A model generated the notes under the pieces. It saw nothing but the letters and a program-made list of their open reading frames with translations, ran no database searches and was not told where the DNA came from. DNA of 64,000 nucleotides from Weissella halotolerans DSM 20190 (GTDB lineage: Bacteria; Bacillota; Bacilli; Lactobacillales; Lactobacillaceae), in the NCBI RefSeq assembly GCF_000420365.1, contig NZ_ATUU01000002.1, positions 348,520 through 412,519 of the forward strand, written 5' to 3'. Shown one piece after another: positions 26,071 to 64,000 of the stretch; within the stretch, counting starts at the first letter, position 1, and the number at the start of each line of letters is the position of its first letter. Made by a program: the position numbers and the translations under genes.

Positions 26071-26901
26071 TTAATTTTCAAGCTTAGTCGTCAAATCTTT
26101 ACCAAAGTATTGTTCAGATAATTTACGAAGGGTTCCTTGTTCTGCTAATTTTTGTTCAGCCTTAGAAATTGCTTTTGCTAAGGCTTTATCTTGTTTGTTC
26201 AACATAGGTGCCGCTCCCGTAGCATCAACATCCTTAGTTGGAATCGCCTTGAGATTAGTCTTAGGATGCTTCTTTACAAAGATACTCCAAGCATCATCAG
26301 CATTCAACATCACGTCAGCTTTACCAGCGCTAATCAAATCTAAACCTTCAGCAAAGCCAGGTGTACCAACAATTTTAGCTCCTGCCTTTTGTGCCGCCTT
26401 ACCATAATTAGAAGATGTTGTTTGAGCTGCCCGCTTACCATTAATATCCTTAATGGTTTTAATCGTTGAATCCTTTCGAACAATCATAACTGATTGCGAG
26501 TAGAGATATTGGCTACCAAAAGTATAGTGCTCACGACGTTCTGGGGTTTCACCCATATCATTAAACACCACATCATACTTGTTAGCATCTAAACCAGCCA
26601 CTAAGGAATCAAATTTTGTCTCAACAAAAACCGGCTTTAACTTTAATTCTTTGGCCACCGCCTTGGCTACGTCAACGTCATAACCAACTAATTTCCCCTG
26701 CTTATTCTTATACGAAAAGGGGGCATAATTACCTTCTAAACCAATTGTTAATTTACCAGGCGTCTTAAGTTCTTTAACATAGCCTGATCCTTTTGTTTTT
26801 TCACCATCCGTCTGATGATTAAACAAACTGATTCCCACACCAATAATGGCACCCGCTGCAACAACACCTAGTGCGCCTTTCATCCACTTGTTCATATTCA
26901 C
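26071..26901 (-). CDS. Amino-acid ABC transporter substrate-binding protein, probable cystine binder (TcyA-like)
   Basis: Family-3 solute-binding protein, about 276 residues. An N-terminal hydrophobic segment (about 9-28) anchors or exports it, with no lipobox cysteine, so it is not a usual lipoprotein. The mature domain starts KLTIGLEGNYAPFSYKNKQGKLVGYDVDVAKAVAKELKLKPVFVETKFDSLVAGLDANKYDVVFNDMGETPERREHYTFG, in which a short variant of the 'PERxxxY' hinge is typical of cystine/polar amino acid binders. The C-terminus is EQGTLRKLSEQYFGKD. No cysteine in the whole protein. The GTG at 26901 is seven bases from GGAG and is my choice; ATG at 26895 is the alternative and the GTG at 26907 abuts the GGAG. 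A Cys-rich leader ORF lies 60 bases upstream. Confidence 0.85.
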   Translation of the reverse strand: MNMNKWMKGALGVVAAGAIIGVGISLFNHQTDGEKTKGSGYVKELKTPGKLTIGLEGNYAPFSYKNKQGKLVGYDVDVAKAVAKELKLKPVFVETKFDSLVAGLDANKYDVVFNDMGETPERREHYTFGSQYLYSQSVMIVRKDSTIKTIKDINGKRAAQTTSSNYGKAAQKAGAKIVGTPGFAEGLDLISAGKADVMLNADDAWSIFVKKHPKTNLKAIPTKDVDATGAAPMLNKQDKALAKAISKAEQKLAEQGTLRKLSEQYFGKDLTTKLEN

Positions 26902-26964
26902 TATCACACTCCATTAATCTTTTTTAACTTAACGCTCTGCTACTCCTTAACCGCTAATCTCAGG

Positions 26965-27027
26965 CTAACAACTACAAGCCAGCCCCGTCGGGTAACATCG
27001 GTGCGCAAATTGTAAGTTCGTCATCAT
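26965..27027 (-). CDS. Cysteine-rich leader peptide of the binding-protein transcript
   Basis: A 20-codon frame, MMTNLQFAHRCYPTGLACSC, starting at ATG 27027-27025 nine bases after a strong GGAGGG and stopping at TAG 26967-26965, about 60 bases before the binding-protein start. Cys is at 11, 18 and 20, the last two directly before the stop. Overlapping weak stems surround its end: GGCT/AGCC about the Cys18-Ser-Cys20 codons, UUAGCC/GGUUAA beginning at the stop (26968-26963 with 26952-26947), and UUAGCG/CGUUAA (26957-26952 with 26934-26929). These exclude one another. No U-run follows, so if it regulates it may do so at translation. It was found by reading the sequence; no database support. Confidence 0.65.
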   Translation of the reverse strand: MMTNLQFAHRCYPTGLACSC

Positions 27028-27177
27028 AACACAAAGCCCTCCAAAAATGGTCCAGATACATGAACAAACCATGGTTACTTACGTTTTGTTTGTATCTCCC
27101 AAAAATACGGTTTAAGCTTACCACAGCTATTAACAATTTAAAATACTTATTTTTTATCATTAAATTGTTATTTTCCC

Positions 27178-27206
27178 TTGCCTTTTACTAGGTAAAAAAA
27201 TATAAT
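27178..27206 (+). promoter_or_regulatory. SigA promoter of the Cys-leader/transporter operon
   Basis: -35 TTGCCT (27178-27183), exactly 17-bp spacer, -10 TATAAT (27201-27206). Transcription should start near 27213, giving a leader of about 200 bases before the permease. Confidence 0.85.
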
Positions 27207-27238
27207 TGTTAATAAATATACAAGGAAAAGAGCTTATC

Positions 27239-27301
27239 ATGACCGAAAGTCGGCAGAATGTCAATTTACTTTGCTGTTCCCTAACGTGTTTAGTACGTTA
27301 G
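27239..27301 (+). CDS. Cysteine-rich leader peptide of the permease operon
   Basis: A 20-codon frame, MTESRQNVNLLCCSLTCLVR, begins about 26 bases after the predicted transcription start and is preceded by AAGGAAAAGAG. Cys codons are 12 (TGC), 13 (TGT) and 17 (TGT). The third lies at the 5' arm of the hairpin CCTAACGT/ACGTTAGG (27280-27302) and the TAG stop ends in its 3' arm, so ribosome position would decide whether that hairpin forms. This is the classic layout of a transcription-attenuation leader peptide, here for cysteine. The regulation is inferred; the ORF, its codons and the stems are seen directly. Confidence 0.8.
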   Translation: MTESRQNVNLLCCSLTCLVR

Positions 27302-27382
27302 GCTATTTTGGTCTACTTTTAGTAATAAACGTATTAAACGCACATACCCTCCCCAGACAATGGATGGTTTGCGCGTTTTTTT
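27280..27382 (+). promoter_or_regulatory. Cysteine attenuator: pause, antiterminator and terminator stems
   Basis: Segment 1:2 is CCTAACGT (27280-27287) with ACGTTAGG (27295-27302). Segment 2:3 pairs GTGTTTAGTACGTT (27286-27299) with AACGTATTAAACGCAC (27328-27343), 14 paired bases with one G-U and a 2-base bulge. Segment 3:4 pairs AAACGCACATACC (27336-27348) with GGTTTGCGCGTTT (27366-27378), then seven Ts: an intrinsic terminator just ahead of the permease ribosome-binding site. 1:2 frees 3 for the terminator; a ribosome stalled on the Cys codons would block 1 and let 2:3 form, preventing termination. Confidence 0.75.
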
Positions 27383-27409
27383 ATTTAACTATCTTAGAAA
27401 GGATTCTTT

Positions 27410-28102
27410 ATGTGGAATTTTATCGCAACCTACGCCCCTCAGCTTATTATGGCCGGCATTAAATACACTATTCCCTTAGCCCTAATCTCATTTGTCATTG
27501 CTATGGTCATTGCTGCTTTTGTTGGCGTCATGCGTTCTTACCGCCCTCAAGTGGATGGTAGCAAGAAGATCTTATGGCGTCTTTTTCAAAGTTTATTAAT
27601 TTTTTACGTCTGGATTTTTCGGTCAACCCCCATGCTTGTGCAGTTATTCGTTGCCTTTTATGGTCTACCTAAATTAGGAATTAGCTGGTTGCAACCGTCT
27701 GCTTGGACAGCTGCCATCTGGGTTCTATCGCTAAACACCGGAGCCTATGCTAGCGAAGCAATCCGGGCAGCTATTAGTTCCATCCCCGCTACCCAACGCG
27801 AAGCCGCACAGGCATTGGGAATGACTGATAGCCAAACCTTTGGTCTCATTATCGTACCCCAGGCTGCTCGAATTTCAATTCCCACACTAGCCAATTCCTT
27901 CATTTCACTAATTAAAGATACCTCTTTAGCCTCTGTGGTCACCATCGTCGAAATGTTCTACCTTTCACAGCAACTAGCTGCCGCAAACTTTGAACCCTTA
28001 CAAATGTATTTGCTGGTAGCGGCTATCTACGCCCTCTTCGTTACAATTCTTTCCTTCCCCCAACGTTATATTCAACGCTGGGCCGACCGCTTTATTAAAT
28101 AA
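27410..28102 (+). CDS. Amino-acid ABC transporter permease, probable cystine (TcyB-like)
   Basis: Membrane subunit of the polar amino acid ABC family, 230 residues with five helices. It has the family opening MWNFIATYAPQLIMAGIKYTIPLALISFVIAMVIAAFVGVMR and FRSTPMLVQLFVAFYGLP. The EAA coupling loop is IPATQREAAQALGMTDSQTFGLIIVPQAAR (about 124-153). C-terminal helices follow to residue 225. The gene starts at ATG 27410, eight to ten bases after GAAAGGA, directly downstream of the attenuator terminator. The ATPase gene follows after 14 bases. The whole protein lacks cysteine. The cystine assignment rests on the family and on the Cys leader peptides; other amino acids are possible. Confidence 0.85.
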   Translation: MWNFIATYAPQLIMAGIKYTIPLALISFVIAMVIAAFVGVMRSYRPQVDGSKKILWRLFQSLLIFYVWIFRSTPMLVQLFVAFYGLPKLGISWLQPSAWTAAIWVLSLNTGAYASEAIRAAISSIPATQREAAQALGMTDSQTFGLIIVPQAARISIPTLANSFISLIKDTSLASVVTIVEMFYLSQQLAAANFEPLQMYLLVAAIYALFVTILSFPQRYIQRWADRFIK

Positions 28103-28116
28103 GTGAGGTTCCAATT

Positions 28117-28851
28117 ATGCTAAAACTTGAAAATGTTAACAAAACCTACAGTGAACACCAAGCTTTAAAGGATATTAACGTAACCTTTAATCCAAAGGAG
28201 ACAACCGTTATTGTTGGTCCTTCCGGTTCAGGAAAATCCACCCTCTTACGGTCATTAAATTTACTGGAACGTCCCCAAACCGGCCTTTACACCATTGATG
28301 AACGAACCATTAACTTTGCTGAACACATCGATACCGCGACGACCCTTTGGGTACGACGCAAAACAGGTATGGTCTTCCAACAACCCGGTATGTTTAATCA
28401 ACTGACCATTTTGGGCAATGTGATCGAGGCACCAATTCATGTCTTAAAGCAAAAAAAAGACGTTGCGATTACTGAAGCTCACCACTTACTTGAGGCAGTT
28501 GGAATCGGGGAAACTGCCGACCGTTATCCCTATCAACTTTCAGGAGGCCAAACCCAACGAGCTGCTATTGCACGTGCGTTGGCCATGCACCCTTCTTACC
28601 TACTACTTGATGAGCCAACCTCTGCACTCGATCCTGAGACCGAAGCCCAGATTCTTCGCATCCTCAAAAAAATGGCTGAACAAAATGAATCTATGATTAT
28701 AGTTACGCATAATATGGACTTCGCCCGCTATGCAGCTGATCGTATTCTCTTTTTAGAAGATGGGCGAATTGATTTCGATGGTAGCCCCAACGACTTTTTT
28801 GAACATCCTAATGAACGAATCAAAAAATTCCTGAATGCCTTTAAATTCTAA
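28117..28851 (+). CDS. Amino-acid ABC transporter ATPase, probable cystine (TcyC-like)
   Basis: ATP-binding subunit of the same importer, 244 residues. Walker A GPSGSGKST (34-42), Q-loop VFQQPGMFNQLTILGNV, signature QLSGGQTQRAAIARAL, Walker B YLLLDEPTSALDPE and switch His in VTHNMDFAR. It begins after GTGAGGTTCCAATT. It belongs to the polar amino acid group, next to GlnQ/TcyC. No cysteine in the sequence. The substrate is inferred from leader peptides and the divergent binding protein. A parS-like 16-mer begins two bases after the stop, and a terminator follows at once. Confidence 0.88.
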   Translation: MLKLENVNKTYSEHQALKDINVTFNPKETTVIVGPSGSGKSTLLRSLNLLERPQTGLYTIDERTINFAEHIDTATTLWVRRKTGMVFQQPGMFNQLTILGNVIEAPIHVLKQKKDVAITEAHHLLEAVGIGETADRYPYQLSGGQTQRAAIARALAMHPSYLLLDEPTSALDPETEAQILRILKKMAEQNESMIIVTHNMDFARYAADRILFLEDGRIDFDGSPNDFFEHPNERIKKFLNAFKF

Positions 28852-28852
28852 A

Positions 28853-28868
28853 TGTTCCACATGAAACA
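28853..28868. promoter_or_regulatory. parS-like site 2
   Basis: TGTTCCACATGAAACA, overlapping the base run right after the tcyC-like stop. It differs from TGTTTCACGTGAAACA at two positions, one of which (C at position 5) is a known natural variant. Confidence 0.6.
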
Positions 28869-28903
28869 AAAAGCGGTTGGTATTAAAATACCAACCGCTT
28901 TTT
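28868..28903. terminator. Bidirectional terminator after the ABC operon
   Basis: AAAAAGCGGTTGGTATT / AATACCAACCGCTTTTT between convergent genes. Confidence 0.92.
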
Positions 28904-29228
28904 AATTTGTTTCCCGATCTTTAGCCACATGTACGGCATGCTCCAAGGCCTCATTAAGAATATCCAACACATGGGGATCATTCAATTGGTAGTAAACTGC
29001 CTTTCCCTCACGGTGAGTCGAAATTAAATGGCCTGCTCGCAGTAAAGCTAGCTGATGTGATACCGCCGACTGCTCCATGTTTAGCCGCTCTACAATCTGA
29101 CTCACATTCAGCGCTTCTTGTTCTAAGATATACAATATCTGTAAACGTGTGCCATTACTAAATAGTTTAAATATATCACGCGCCCCTGCTAAGTCTGCTT
29201 CTTTCAATAAGGATACTTTTTCACCCAT
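28902..29228 (-). CDS. ArsR/SmtB-family metal-sensing repressor
   Basis: 108-residue winged-helix repressor: ARDIFKLFSNGTRLQILYILEQEALNVSQIVERLNMEQSAVSHQLALLRAGHLISTHREGKAVYYQLNDPHVLDILNEALEHAVHVAKDRETN. The C-terminal HVLDIL...EHAVHVAK has the Asp/His pattern of the alpha-5 Zn/Co-binding site (CzrA type). It lacks the alpha-3 CxC of arsenic and cadmium sensors, so zinc/cobalt is more likely. It is divergent from the P-type ATPase it almost certainly controls, with an operator-like inverted repeat between. Ribosome-binding site GAGGGGCTCGT. Confidence 0.9.
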   Translation of the reverse strand: MGEKVSLLKEADLAGARDIFKLFSNGTRLQILYILEQEALNVSQIVERLNMEQSAVSHQLALLRAGHLISTHREGKAVYYQLNDPHVLDILNEALEHAVHVAKDRETN

Positions 29229-29337: not shown

Positions 29338-29358
29338 TATTAATTGAGGGCTATAAAC

Positions 29359-31230
29359 ATGAAGCTTAAATCTAAATTGACTAGTTTATCTAGCGAACAA
29401 AAATCAACTTGTCTGGCCATTGTCCTTAGCATCACACTGGGCCTACTGGCATGGCAATTATCAAATTCTCCCTTGCAAACTTTCCTTTTCTTATGTGCTT
29501 ACCTGATAGCCGGAGGTAAGGTCCTTATTTCAGCCTTTCGCCATTTAACGCAAGGTAAACTTTTTGACGAAAACTTCCTTATGACCTTAGCCACCCTTGG
29601 CGCTATCATCTTGGGCGAATACCCAGAAGCCATTGCCGTTATGGTTTTCTTCTCAATTGGTGAGGTCATAGAAGATATTGCCACGGACCACTCAAAACGT
29701 TCAATTAATCAACTCTTGTCAGAACAACCAGTGTTAGTTCATTGGTTGAAAGATGGTAACCAACAAGACGTCACACCTGAAGAAGTGGCAATTGGTAGTG
29801 TTATCCAAATTTTGCCAGGAGAAAAAATTCCCCTGGACGGTACCGTTATTAGTGGCGAATCTACTCTAAACAAAGCTGCACTAACGGGAGAATCTTTACC
29901 CGAATCAGTTCAAACCGGTGACCATATTTTAAGTGGTTCCCTTAATGGCCAAGGTCTACTCACCGTGCGGACATCAAAAACCTTTGAAAATTCAACCATG
30001 ACTCAAATTCTCAAATTAATGACGGACAGCGCTCAACAAAAAGCCCCTACTGAAAAATTTATTAGTAAATTTGCTGCCTATTACACACCAATCATTGCTA
30101 GTATTGCGCTTTTGCTAGCCTTGATACCACCCATCTTCCTTGGTGGCGATTGGTCAACTTGGTTTGAGCGATCACTAGTCTTCTTAGTCATTTCCTGCCC
30201 TTGTGCCTTAGTATTATCCGTGCCCCTTGCTTATGTCGCTGGTTTAACTGCTGCTGCCAGGCACAAGATTATTATTAAGGGCGGAAATTATCTAGACGCC
30301 TTAAATCAGGTTAAAACAATGGCCTTTGATAAAACCGGTACCTTAACCAAGGGAACCTTTAAAGTGACGGCTGTTAATCCCGGCCCCAACTTTACTGCCC
30401 AAACGGTGTTAGCTATTGCCGCCGCTTGTGAAAGATATTCTACCCATCCCATTGCCCAATCAATTGTTGCAGCAGATAAAGGAACCCACAACCCTTACCA
30501 GGCTCGTTCAGTCACTGAATTAGCCGGGGTTGGCCTTACCGCTGTCGTGGATGAACATACAGTACAGATAGGTAACCAATCAGTTCTTACAAAGTTAAAG
30601 CATCCCGCTAACCTCCCTAAATTAAGGACAGGCACCCATGTTTTTGTCATCATCGACCAACATTATGCGGGCCAAATTATTGTTGCTGATACACTAAAAA
30701 CAGATGCTAAAGCGTCTGTACAAGCCTTAAGAAAAACTGGTATTGACCGAACTATCTTATTGACTGGCGATAATGAAAAAACGGCAAAGGCAATTGGTGA
30801 TCAACTGAAACTAGACCAAGTAGAAAGTAAGCTCTTGCCGGCCGATAAAGCAGCCTATATTAGACACTTGCAAGAGCAAGCCAAGCCTCAGGAACAGATT
30901 GGCTTCATTGGTGACGGCATCAATGATGCACCCGTGTTATTAACTGCTGATGTTGGTATCGCCATGGGGGCACTAGGTTCTGATGCAGCTTTAGAAGCCG
31001 CTGATATGATTATTACTGATGATCAATTGCATCACTTAGCACCGGTTATGCTGACCGCACAAAAAACACGCCGTATCGTCATAGAGAATATTAGTTTAGC
31101 CCTCATCGTTAAGGGTGTTGTATTACTACTGGGCGCTTTAGGCTTAGCCAATATGTGGGAAGCTGTTTTTGCTGATGTCGGCATCACATTAATTGCCGTT
31201 TTAAATGCCATGCGTTTGTTGAAAAAATAA
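29359..31230 (+). CDS. Heavy-metal P1B-type ATPase (Zn/Cd/Co efflux)
   Basis: Metal-transporting ATPase, 623 residues from the ATG eight bases after GAGGG; the longer frame begins at TTG. Eight helices. No N-terminal HMA domain or CxxC motif, so it is a short form. Landmarks: actuator TGES (KAALTGESLPE), the CPC ion motif ISCPCALVLSVPLAY typical of the Zn/Cd/Pb group, phosphorylation site AFDKTGTLTKG, the HP nucleotide motif STHPIAQ and hinge GDGINDAPVL. The last helix pair carries GITLIAVLNAMRLL, with the Asp of the Zn-type FADVGIT. Controlled by the divergent ArsR-type repressor. Confidence 0.93.
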   Translation: MKLKSKLTSLSSEQKSTCLAIVLSITLGLLAWQLSNSPLQTFLFLCAYLIAGGKVLISAFRHLTQGKLFDENFLMTLATLGAIILGEYPEAIAVMVFFSIGEVIEDIATDHSKRSINQLLSEQPVLVHWLKDGNQQDVTPEEVAIGSVIQILPGEKIPLDGTVISGESTLNKAALTGESLPESVQTGDHILSGSLNGQGLLTVRTSKTFENSTMTQILKLMTDSAQQKAPTEKFISKFAAYYTPIIASIALLLALIPPIFLGGDWSTWFERSLVFLVISCPCALVLSVPLAYVAGLTAAARHKIIIKGGNYLDALNQVKTMAFDKTGTLTKGTFKVTAVNPGPNFTAQTVLAIAAACERYSTHPIAQSIVAADKGTHNPYQARSVTELAGVGLTAVVDEHTVQIGNQSVLTKLKHPANLPKLRTGTHVFVIIDQHYAGQIIVADTLKTDAKASVQALRKTGIDRTILLTGDNEKTAKAIGDQLKLDQVESKLLPADKAAYIRHLQEQAKPQEQIGFIGDGINDAPVLLTADVGIAMGALGSDAALEAADMIITDDQLHHLAPVMLTAQKTRRIVIENISLALIVKGVVLLLGALGLANMWEAVFADVGITLIAVLNAMRLLKK

Positions 31231-63834: not shown

Positions 63835-64000
63835 CAAAATGAGAGTTTGATCCTGGCTCAGGATAAACGCTGGCGGCGTGCCTAATACATGCAAGTCGAA
63901 CGCCTTGTCGTTCTACTGATTTAGAGAGCTCGCTCAATACTGACGTAGAACTATACAAGGAGTGGCGAACGGGTGAGTAACACGTGGGAAACCTACCTCT
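63835..64000 (+). rRNA. rrs: 16S ribosomal RNA, 5' end
   Basis: GAGAGTTTGATCCTGGCTCAG at 63841 is the universal 16S 5' region, followed by AACGCTGGCGGCGTGCCTAATACATGCAAGTCGAACG in close form and, further on, GTGAGTAACACGTGGG. The 5' terminus is estimated by alignment with the usual start seven bases before AGAGTTTGATC. The V1 loop and 'aacctacctct' look Weissella-like. The rest lies past the window. Confidence 0.97.

Follow-up and report, generated by a model that had tools for sequence, protein, structure and literature searches.

An ABC importer locus in Weissella halotolerans

The stretch of DNA analysed here, which we call the window, comprises 64,000 nucleotides of W. halotolerans DSM 20190 and holds the genes of an ABC importer, with the permease and ATPase genes lying behind a structured leader and the gene for the substrate-binding protein pointing the other way. 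The features of the locus and its surroundings are listed below by their positions in the window.

26071..26907, minus strand: substrate-binding protein of the importer (family-3, PF00497), divergent
26965..27027, minus strand: MMTNLQFAHRCYPTGLACSC, a further leader ORF with Cys codons, divergent from the first and preceding the binding-protein gene
27178..27206, plus strand: candidate sigma-70 promoter TTGCCT-17-TATAAT, 10/12 matches, alone not above chance
27239..27301, plus strand: leader ORF MTESRQNVNLLCCSLTCLVR, stop TAG
27272..27274, plus strand: putative control codon Cys12 (TGC)
27280..27302, plus strand: hairpin 1:2, which reaches back over the last codons of the leader ORF; -9.8 kcal/mol, 0/200 shuffles as good
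27286..27299, plus strand: antiterminator 5' arm, 14 bp with 27328-27341
27303..27315, plus strand: conserved post-hairpin motif from the alignment of leaders, consensus TCGTTTTGGTG, candidate pause site
27328..27341, plus strand: antiterminator 3' arm (the same 14-bp pairing), overlapping the terminator 5' arm
27336..27382, plus strand: intrinsic terminator with stem 27336-27378 and T run 27376-27382; -14.7 kcal/mol, 0/200 shuffles as good
27410..28102, plus strand: ABC permease (PF00528); best NCBIfam model the cystine permease NF011680, 163 bits, cut-off 300
28117..28851, plus strand: ABC ATPase (PF00005); best NCBIfam model arginine ArtP, cystine TcyN third, all under cut-off
28868-28903: long symmetric hairpin, terminator-like on both strands, between the ATPase gene and the convergent ArsR-type regulator
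28902-29228: ArsR-type regulator, convergent with the ATPase gene
29344-31230: heavy-metal P-type ATPase, divergent, after the ArsR-type regulator
63835-64000: first part of a 16S rRNA gene, where the window ends

The initial annotation, made from the letters of this DNA, had described a promoter, a 20-codon ORF with Cys at positions 12, 13 and 17, three stems, and a seven-T terminator just before an ABC permease, and as a whole this observation was borne out. The substrate of the importer is likely cystine, judging from sequence similarity. The best NCBIfam model for the binding protein is that of a cystine substrate-binding protein (NF008426, 134 bits, cut-off 312), and neither this protein nor the permease reaches the curated cut-off of the cystine ABC importer models (NF008426 and NF011680, respectively). 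Among solved structures the binding protein is nearest to chain 2yln_A (1.2e-52), which we take to be a cystine-binding protein, and the next chain follows at 1.5e-31.

The cysteine-synthase profile TIGR01136 gave strong matches in only two of the 28 Weissella genomes (G012 and G019) and weak matches, none above the cut-off, in three others. It had no match in the 1.36-Mb genome to which the window belongs (G000), and the same profile matched all 14 control genomes. Because so few of these genomes match, most of these Weissella probably depend on imported cysteine or cystine.

Conservation and structure of the permease leader

Close orthologs of the permease (74-86% identity) were found in 22 further genomes, so that with the window's own 23 of the 28 Weissella genomes have one, and the leader element lies upstream of all 23. 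The other five genomes (G004, G009, G013, G014 and G022) have at best a permease paralog of 51-55% identity, which lacks such a leader. A 33-letter pattern allowing three mismatches proved too strict (0/151 genomes, the window's own included), and a covariance model of the 57-nt core was used instead. This model finds one copy in each of 23/28 Weissella genomes, matches that include the source sequences of the model and so show restriction rather than independent discovery. Across the Lactobacillaceae it matched 21 of 397 genomes, all of them Weissella (one of 40 genera), and none of the 371 genomes outside the genus, which itself accounts for 26 of the 397; this search used stricter filters, under which weak matches may be lost. 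At 14 related loci with a substrate-binding protein and a permease, from Leuconostoc, Fructobacillus, Convivina and unplaced relatives, the binding-protein gene stands directly before the permease, where we found no such leader and no T-box over the gathering score, and where Rfam gives tRNA alone.

A T-box or riboswitch at the Weissella locus was also considered and rejected, since a search of 26600-27700 against Rfam, carried to E 1, returned no match. T-boxes occur in all 28 Weissella genomes, with 11 to 28 matches each; the window's genome has 12, none of them at this locus.

The window's leader is 20 codons long, and its codons for Cys12, Cys13 and Cys17 start at 27272, 27275 and 27287. 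Among the three Cys codons that had been singled out, Cys12 alone is conserved. When the leaders are aligned on the hairpin, this position is Cys in 23/23, encoded by TGC in 12 and by TGT in 11, and an invariant residue whose third base varies points to selection on the codon. Cys13 and Cys17, in contrast, are each Cys only in the window (1/23), while the second position after the conserved Cys is Cys in 5/23 leaders. The pattern named in advance as contrary to cysteine control, Cys codons lost where the stems are kept, was not what we found. The conserved codon stands two codons ahead of an invariant CTA within the stem, which leaves 5 nt between the Cys codon and the first stem base in 23/23 leaders. 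Cysteine is otherwise rare here, with 36 of 16637 residues in those window ORFs that have 200 or more residues.

The reading frame around this codon is also well kept. An ATG lies in frame 10 or 11 codons ahead of the conserved Cys in 22/23 orthologs, a purine-rich ribosome-binding region ahead of the ATG was recognized by visual reading in 22/23, and the ORF stops at a TAG within the hairpin in 21/23 or at a TAA in the hairpin loop in 2/23. In the one exception, L003 from W. viridescens DSM 20410, an 8-nt insertion breaks the frame that ATG and Cys codon otherwise share; the remainder of the element is intact, and the near relative L002 has an intact leader. The leader ORF thus has a conserved codon for the amino acid that would be sensed, and the orthologous leaders conserve a single Cys rather than a run. 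A run of control codons is usual for ribosome-mediated transcription attenuators and not essential to them, and the element is still assigned to this class, as a variant.

One invariant Cys instead of a run is also what might be expected of an arrest peptide, in which a ligand, for example free cystine, or the nascent chain itself would stall the ribosome at the conserved Cys and the RNA part would act either as in an attenuator or in the opposite sense. Free tryptophan stalls the ribosome on the tnaC leader peptide. However, the residues ahead of the Cys, on which arrest would draw, vary freely among the 23 leaders, where only the Cys and the stem-encoded Leu are invariant, and we regard an arrest peptide as highly improbable.

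A candidate promoter with ideal spacing is present, but the match alone is weak evidence, as 13 promoter-like sites occur in 4 kb, compared with 8.4 ± 2.7 in shuffles, and only 3/23 orthologous leaders have a promoter with at least 10/12 matches. The three proposed stems were all recovered and are stronger than those of shuffled sequences, with one correction: the antiterminator 3' arm ends at 27341, not at 27343. Hairpin 1:2 is drawn in 23/23 leaders at -7.5 to -12.2 kcal/mol. The stem is almost invariant, with no change at six of its eight pairs, and so offers little room for covariation; one pair fails to close in 11 of the 22 distinct rows. The terminator, whose run of seven T ends 27 nt ahead of the permease gene in the window, is drawn in 23/23 leaders as well, weakly (-4.6) in L022; the shuffle control for terminators covers the window. 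L022 has a reduced layout that lacks a separate antiterminator arm, and its conserved post-hairpin motif itself forms the weak terminator.

The antiterminator was evaluated on the assumption of a ribosome that holds the Cys codon in its A site and covers 12 nt from that codon on. In the window, antiterminator and terminator are mutually exclusive, and the 14-bp antiterminator, which includes two G-U pairs, has a duplex energy of -18.1 kcal/mol versus -9.0 ± 2.3 in shuffles (0/300 as good). With L022 left out, the pairing is equalled by 5% of shuffles or fewer in 16/22 leaders and is weak in the remaining six, namely, L002, L003 and L005 (5-8% of shuffles), L016 and L018 (12-13%) and L020 (33%). 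When the arms were swapped among seven clade representatives, with clade groups set by eye, the true assignment ranked first among the 5040 permutations in both sets tried, so that the arms are co-adapted between clades. The window is also predicted to refold as a switch: the segment 27240-27378 folds into hairpin and terminator (-40.3 kcal/mol), and the segment 27284-27378, in which everything before 27284 is omitted as if a ribosome sat on Cys12, folds into the antiterminator (-25.6; 6/200 shuffles as good). Pairing between the TCGTTTTGGTG motif and the leader start region was tried separately and is unsupported, since the 8 bp seen in the window are matched by 60/300 shuffles and the permutation test among eight clade representatives gave 552/5000.

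A stop codon placed within a hairpin could respond to any ribosome delay, and Arg codons recur near the end of the ORF too, as might be expected if the element sensed slow translation in general, whether from any starvation or from a ribosome-targeting drug, and not cysteine. Yet the terminal Arg and Leu are encoded by the hairpin, whereas the Cys codon falls outside the stem and persists with only synonymous changes, which makes this possibility less probable still. Least probable of all is an incidental ORF on a protein- or metabolite-binding RNA, to which the conserved motif after the hairpin and the one genome with a broken ORF might point, but which fits poorly with an ATG and Cys frame kept in 22/23 leaders, synonymous change at the Cys codon and the lack of an Rfam match.

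We conclude, with a probability of roughly 0.84, that the element works as a ribosome-mediated transcription attenuator controlled through one cysteine codon, which would raise synthesis of a probable cystine importer when charged Cys-tRNA is scarce. The reading rests on the Cys codon kept in every leader with synonymous change, its fixed spacing and the conserved ATG; on a hairpin and terminator drawn throughout, co-adapted arms and the predicted refolding of the window; and on the rarity of Cys, an importer closest to cystine systems and the absent cysteine-synthase match. Counted against it are the one conserved Cys codon compared with the runs in known leaders, the L003 frameshift, six weak antiterminators, the weak L022 terminator, a substrate similarity under curated cut-offs, and a hairpin 1:2 too invariant for covariation and with one pair open in half of the distinct rows. 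The trp/his-type attenuator architecture that had been proposed is supported by the conservation of Cys12 together with the co-adapted arms, and comparison strongly supports the view that the element is by design a cysteine attenuator. On this reading the cysteine supply would decide between termination and read-through, and we infer that cysteine starvation operates the switch.

When cysteine is plentiful, the ribosome would reach the stop codon inside the hairpin and cover the antiterminator arm, and the terminator would form. When cysteine is short, the ribosome would halt with Cys12 in its A site, covering about 12 nt (27272-27283) and blocking hairpin 1:2, and 27286-27299 would stay free to pair with 27328-27341. 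The antiterminator would then take the 5' arm from the terminator, and transcription would continue into the permease and ATPase genes. The conserved motif behind the hairpin may, we conjecture, hold RNA polymerase back long enough for the ribosome to keep pace.

A second leader and a split binding-protein gene

In addition to the permease leader, the divergent binding-protein gene has upstream of it a second leader ORF, which in the window holds three Cys codons. A CGATGT motif occurs in 16 of the 17 loci counted, with six loci whose binding-protein gene is split set apart. Reading by eye, we found that at 14 of these 16 loci it encodes Arg-Cys within an ORF that opens with ATG, directly followed by a stop in 10 of the 14. 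The two CGATGT loci outside the 14 are L020 and L021, and L022, which does not have the motif, has an ORF whose last two codons read Val-Cys. A Cys codon in the leader therefore tends to occur on either side of the importer. A model in which the second leader sequesters the ribosome-binding site lacks general support. The effect in the window is ordinary (36 and 19 of 100 shuffles), and the predicted opening on stalling was matched by no more than 5/100 shuffles in 6 of 20 rows from the 17 loci, those of L002, L004, L009, L013 and L015 and the last-Cys row of L018.

The split genes belong to W. confusa/W. cibaria (L005, L006, L007, L008, L010 and L019; four W. confusa and one W. cibaria among the six) and have no separate leader. 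Their signal peptide runs into SAGVCNR and then a stop, and the mature part of 245-246 residues is open in another frame, with no ATG, GTG or TTG from the preceding stop up to the first mature residue in 6/6. The split site lies around GGTGTGTAA (L019:2636, L005:2645). Comparison of L005 with L019 gives the mature part a dN of 0.12 against a dS of 1.13, a sign of purifying selection on the split protein; the permease values are 0.04 and 0.93. A gene split at a Cys codon and under strong purifying selection suggests, on these sequence grounds, that recoding takes place there.

Predicted public proteins of this kind start internally, P0001 (86 member sequences) and P0005 (148) at about the second residue of LEGTYAPY and P0006 later. 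The relatives P0003 and P0004 (78-79% identity) have an unbroken start, and P0002 (84%) starts just ahead of the mature part. A scan of viral contigs found no relative of the split binding protein. The motif GGTGTGTAAYYRCTAAT occurs once each in 8/28 genomes; six of these copies sit in the split genes, and the other two lie in the L020 and L021 leaders. At the split genes' 17-letter motif, the binding-protein leaders of L020 and L021 read MRKVCNC or MVMVCNY and then stop; by eye, the other frame would lead to the conserved Arg-Cys-stop. An ORF starting MMRVSQVCYARR before a second binding-protein gene in L057 (W. cibaria) is perhaps another Cys leader.

Were the ribosome to change frame at GUG-UGU-A, where the A-site codon calls for cysteine, the binding protein would be made. 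It is conceivable, and we offer this only tentatively as something we consider rather unlikely, that the importer is wholly run by Cys codons, through the permease attenuator, the binding-protein leader and, in W. confusa/W. cibaria, a sensor relocated into the binding-protein gene, where a ribosome short of Cys-tRNA would shift frame at GUG-UGU-A and thereby make the cystine-binding protein. A 2016 review states, in the portion available to us, that no trans-frame protein with a starvation-specific function is known (PMC5009743). The split gene makes this question testable, and if the proposal is true, hungry-codon frameshifting would for the first time be seen to produce a protein as a regulated starvation response.

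Relation to known leaders and significance

The initial annotation knew of no described cysteine attenuator in this family, but leader-peptide attenuators of Firmicutes have already been published, as have cysteine leaders from other phyla, and polycysteine leaders are reportedly the subject of Canestrari 2020. A literature search on Weissella and cysteine leader attenuation, cystine transport and auxotrophy, covering mostly open papers, returned no title on the element.

One close parallel is uORFC-8-2 (PMC8632094), for which cysteine attenuation is predicted ahead of cysS in Rhodobacterales. As outlined in the accessible part of that paper, it likewise combines a short Cys-codon ORF, stems and a U-run terminator, with predicted read-through when Cys-tRNA is scarce. 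It has two tandem Cys codons and precedes a cysteinyl-tRNA synthetase gene in alphaproteobacteria, whereas the Weissella element has one conserved Cys codon and precedes an importer in Lactobacillaceae. In mycobacteria and other Actinobacteria, short Cys-codon ORFs stand before cysteine genes (PMC1262725); in the sections of that paper at hand, the Cys codons come in runs and a conserved terminator hairpin is lacking, in contrast to the intrinsic terminator and one conserved codon seen here.

Within the Firmicutes, his leaders occur (PMC2965389, PMC9413887), and the element resembles such trp/his-type leaders, to the extent that these sources cover them, in its leader ORF, alternative hairpins and terminator. 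The Firmicutes his leaders are given with three to five consecutive His codons in the corresponding part of PMC9413887, unlike the single conserved Cys in Weissella. Cysteine leaders in Lactobacillales are not named where the available text of these two papers treats Firmicutes leaders. A cysteine-specific T-box before an amino-acid ABC transporter gene is described in Lactobacillus paracasei, in the excerpt available of PMC6004538. This T-box, from the same bacterial family, shares with the proposed attenuator the sensing of cysteine tRNA ahead of a gene for a transporter, but it binds the tRNA itself, and the Weissella locus has no T-box match.

What seems new here is an apparently single control codon in an element found only in Weissella among the genomes searched. 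If our reading is true, a genus with T-boxes in every genome searched also has a cysteine-specific switch that senses through the ribosome, and one control codon would show how little a leader needs. The element moreover allows a prediction of the importer's regulated substrate, in bacteria that mostly have no cysteine-synthase match.
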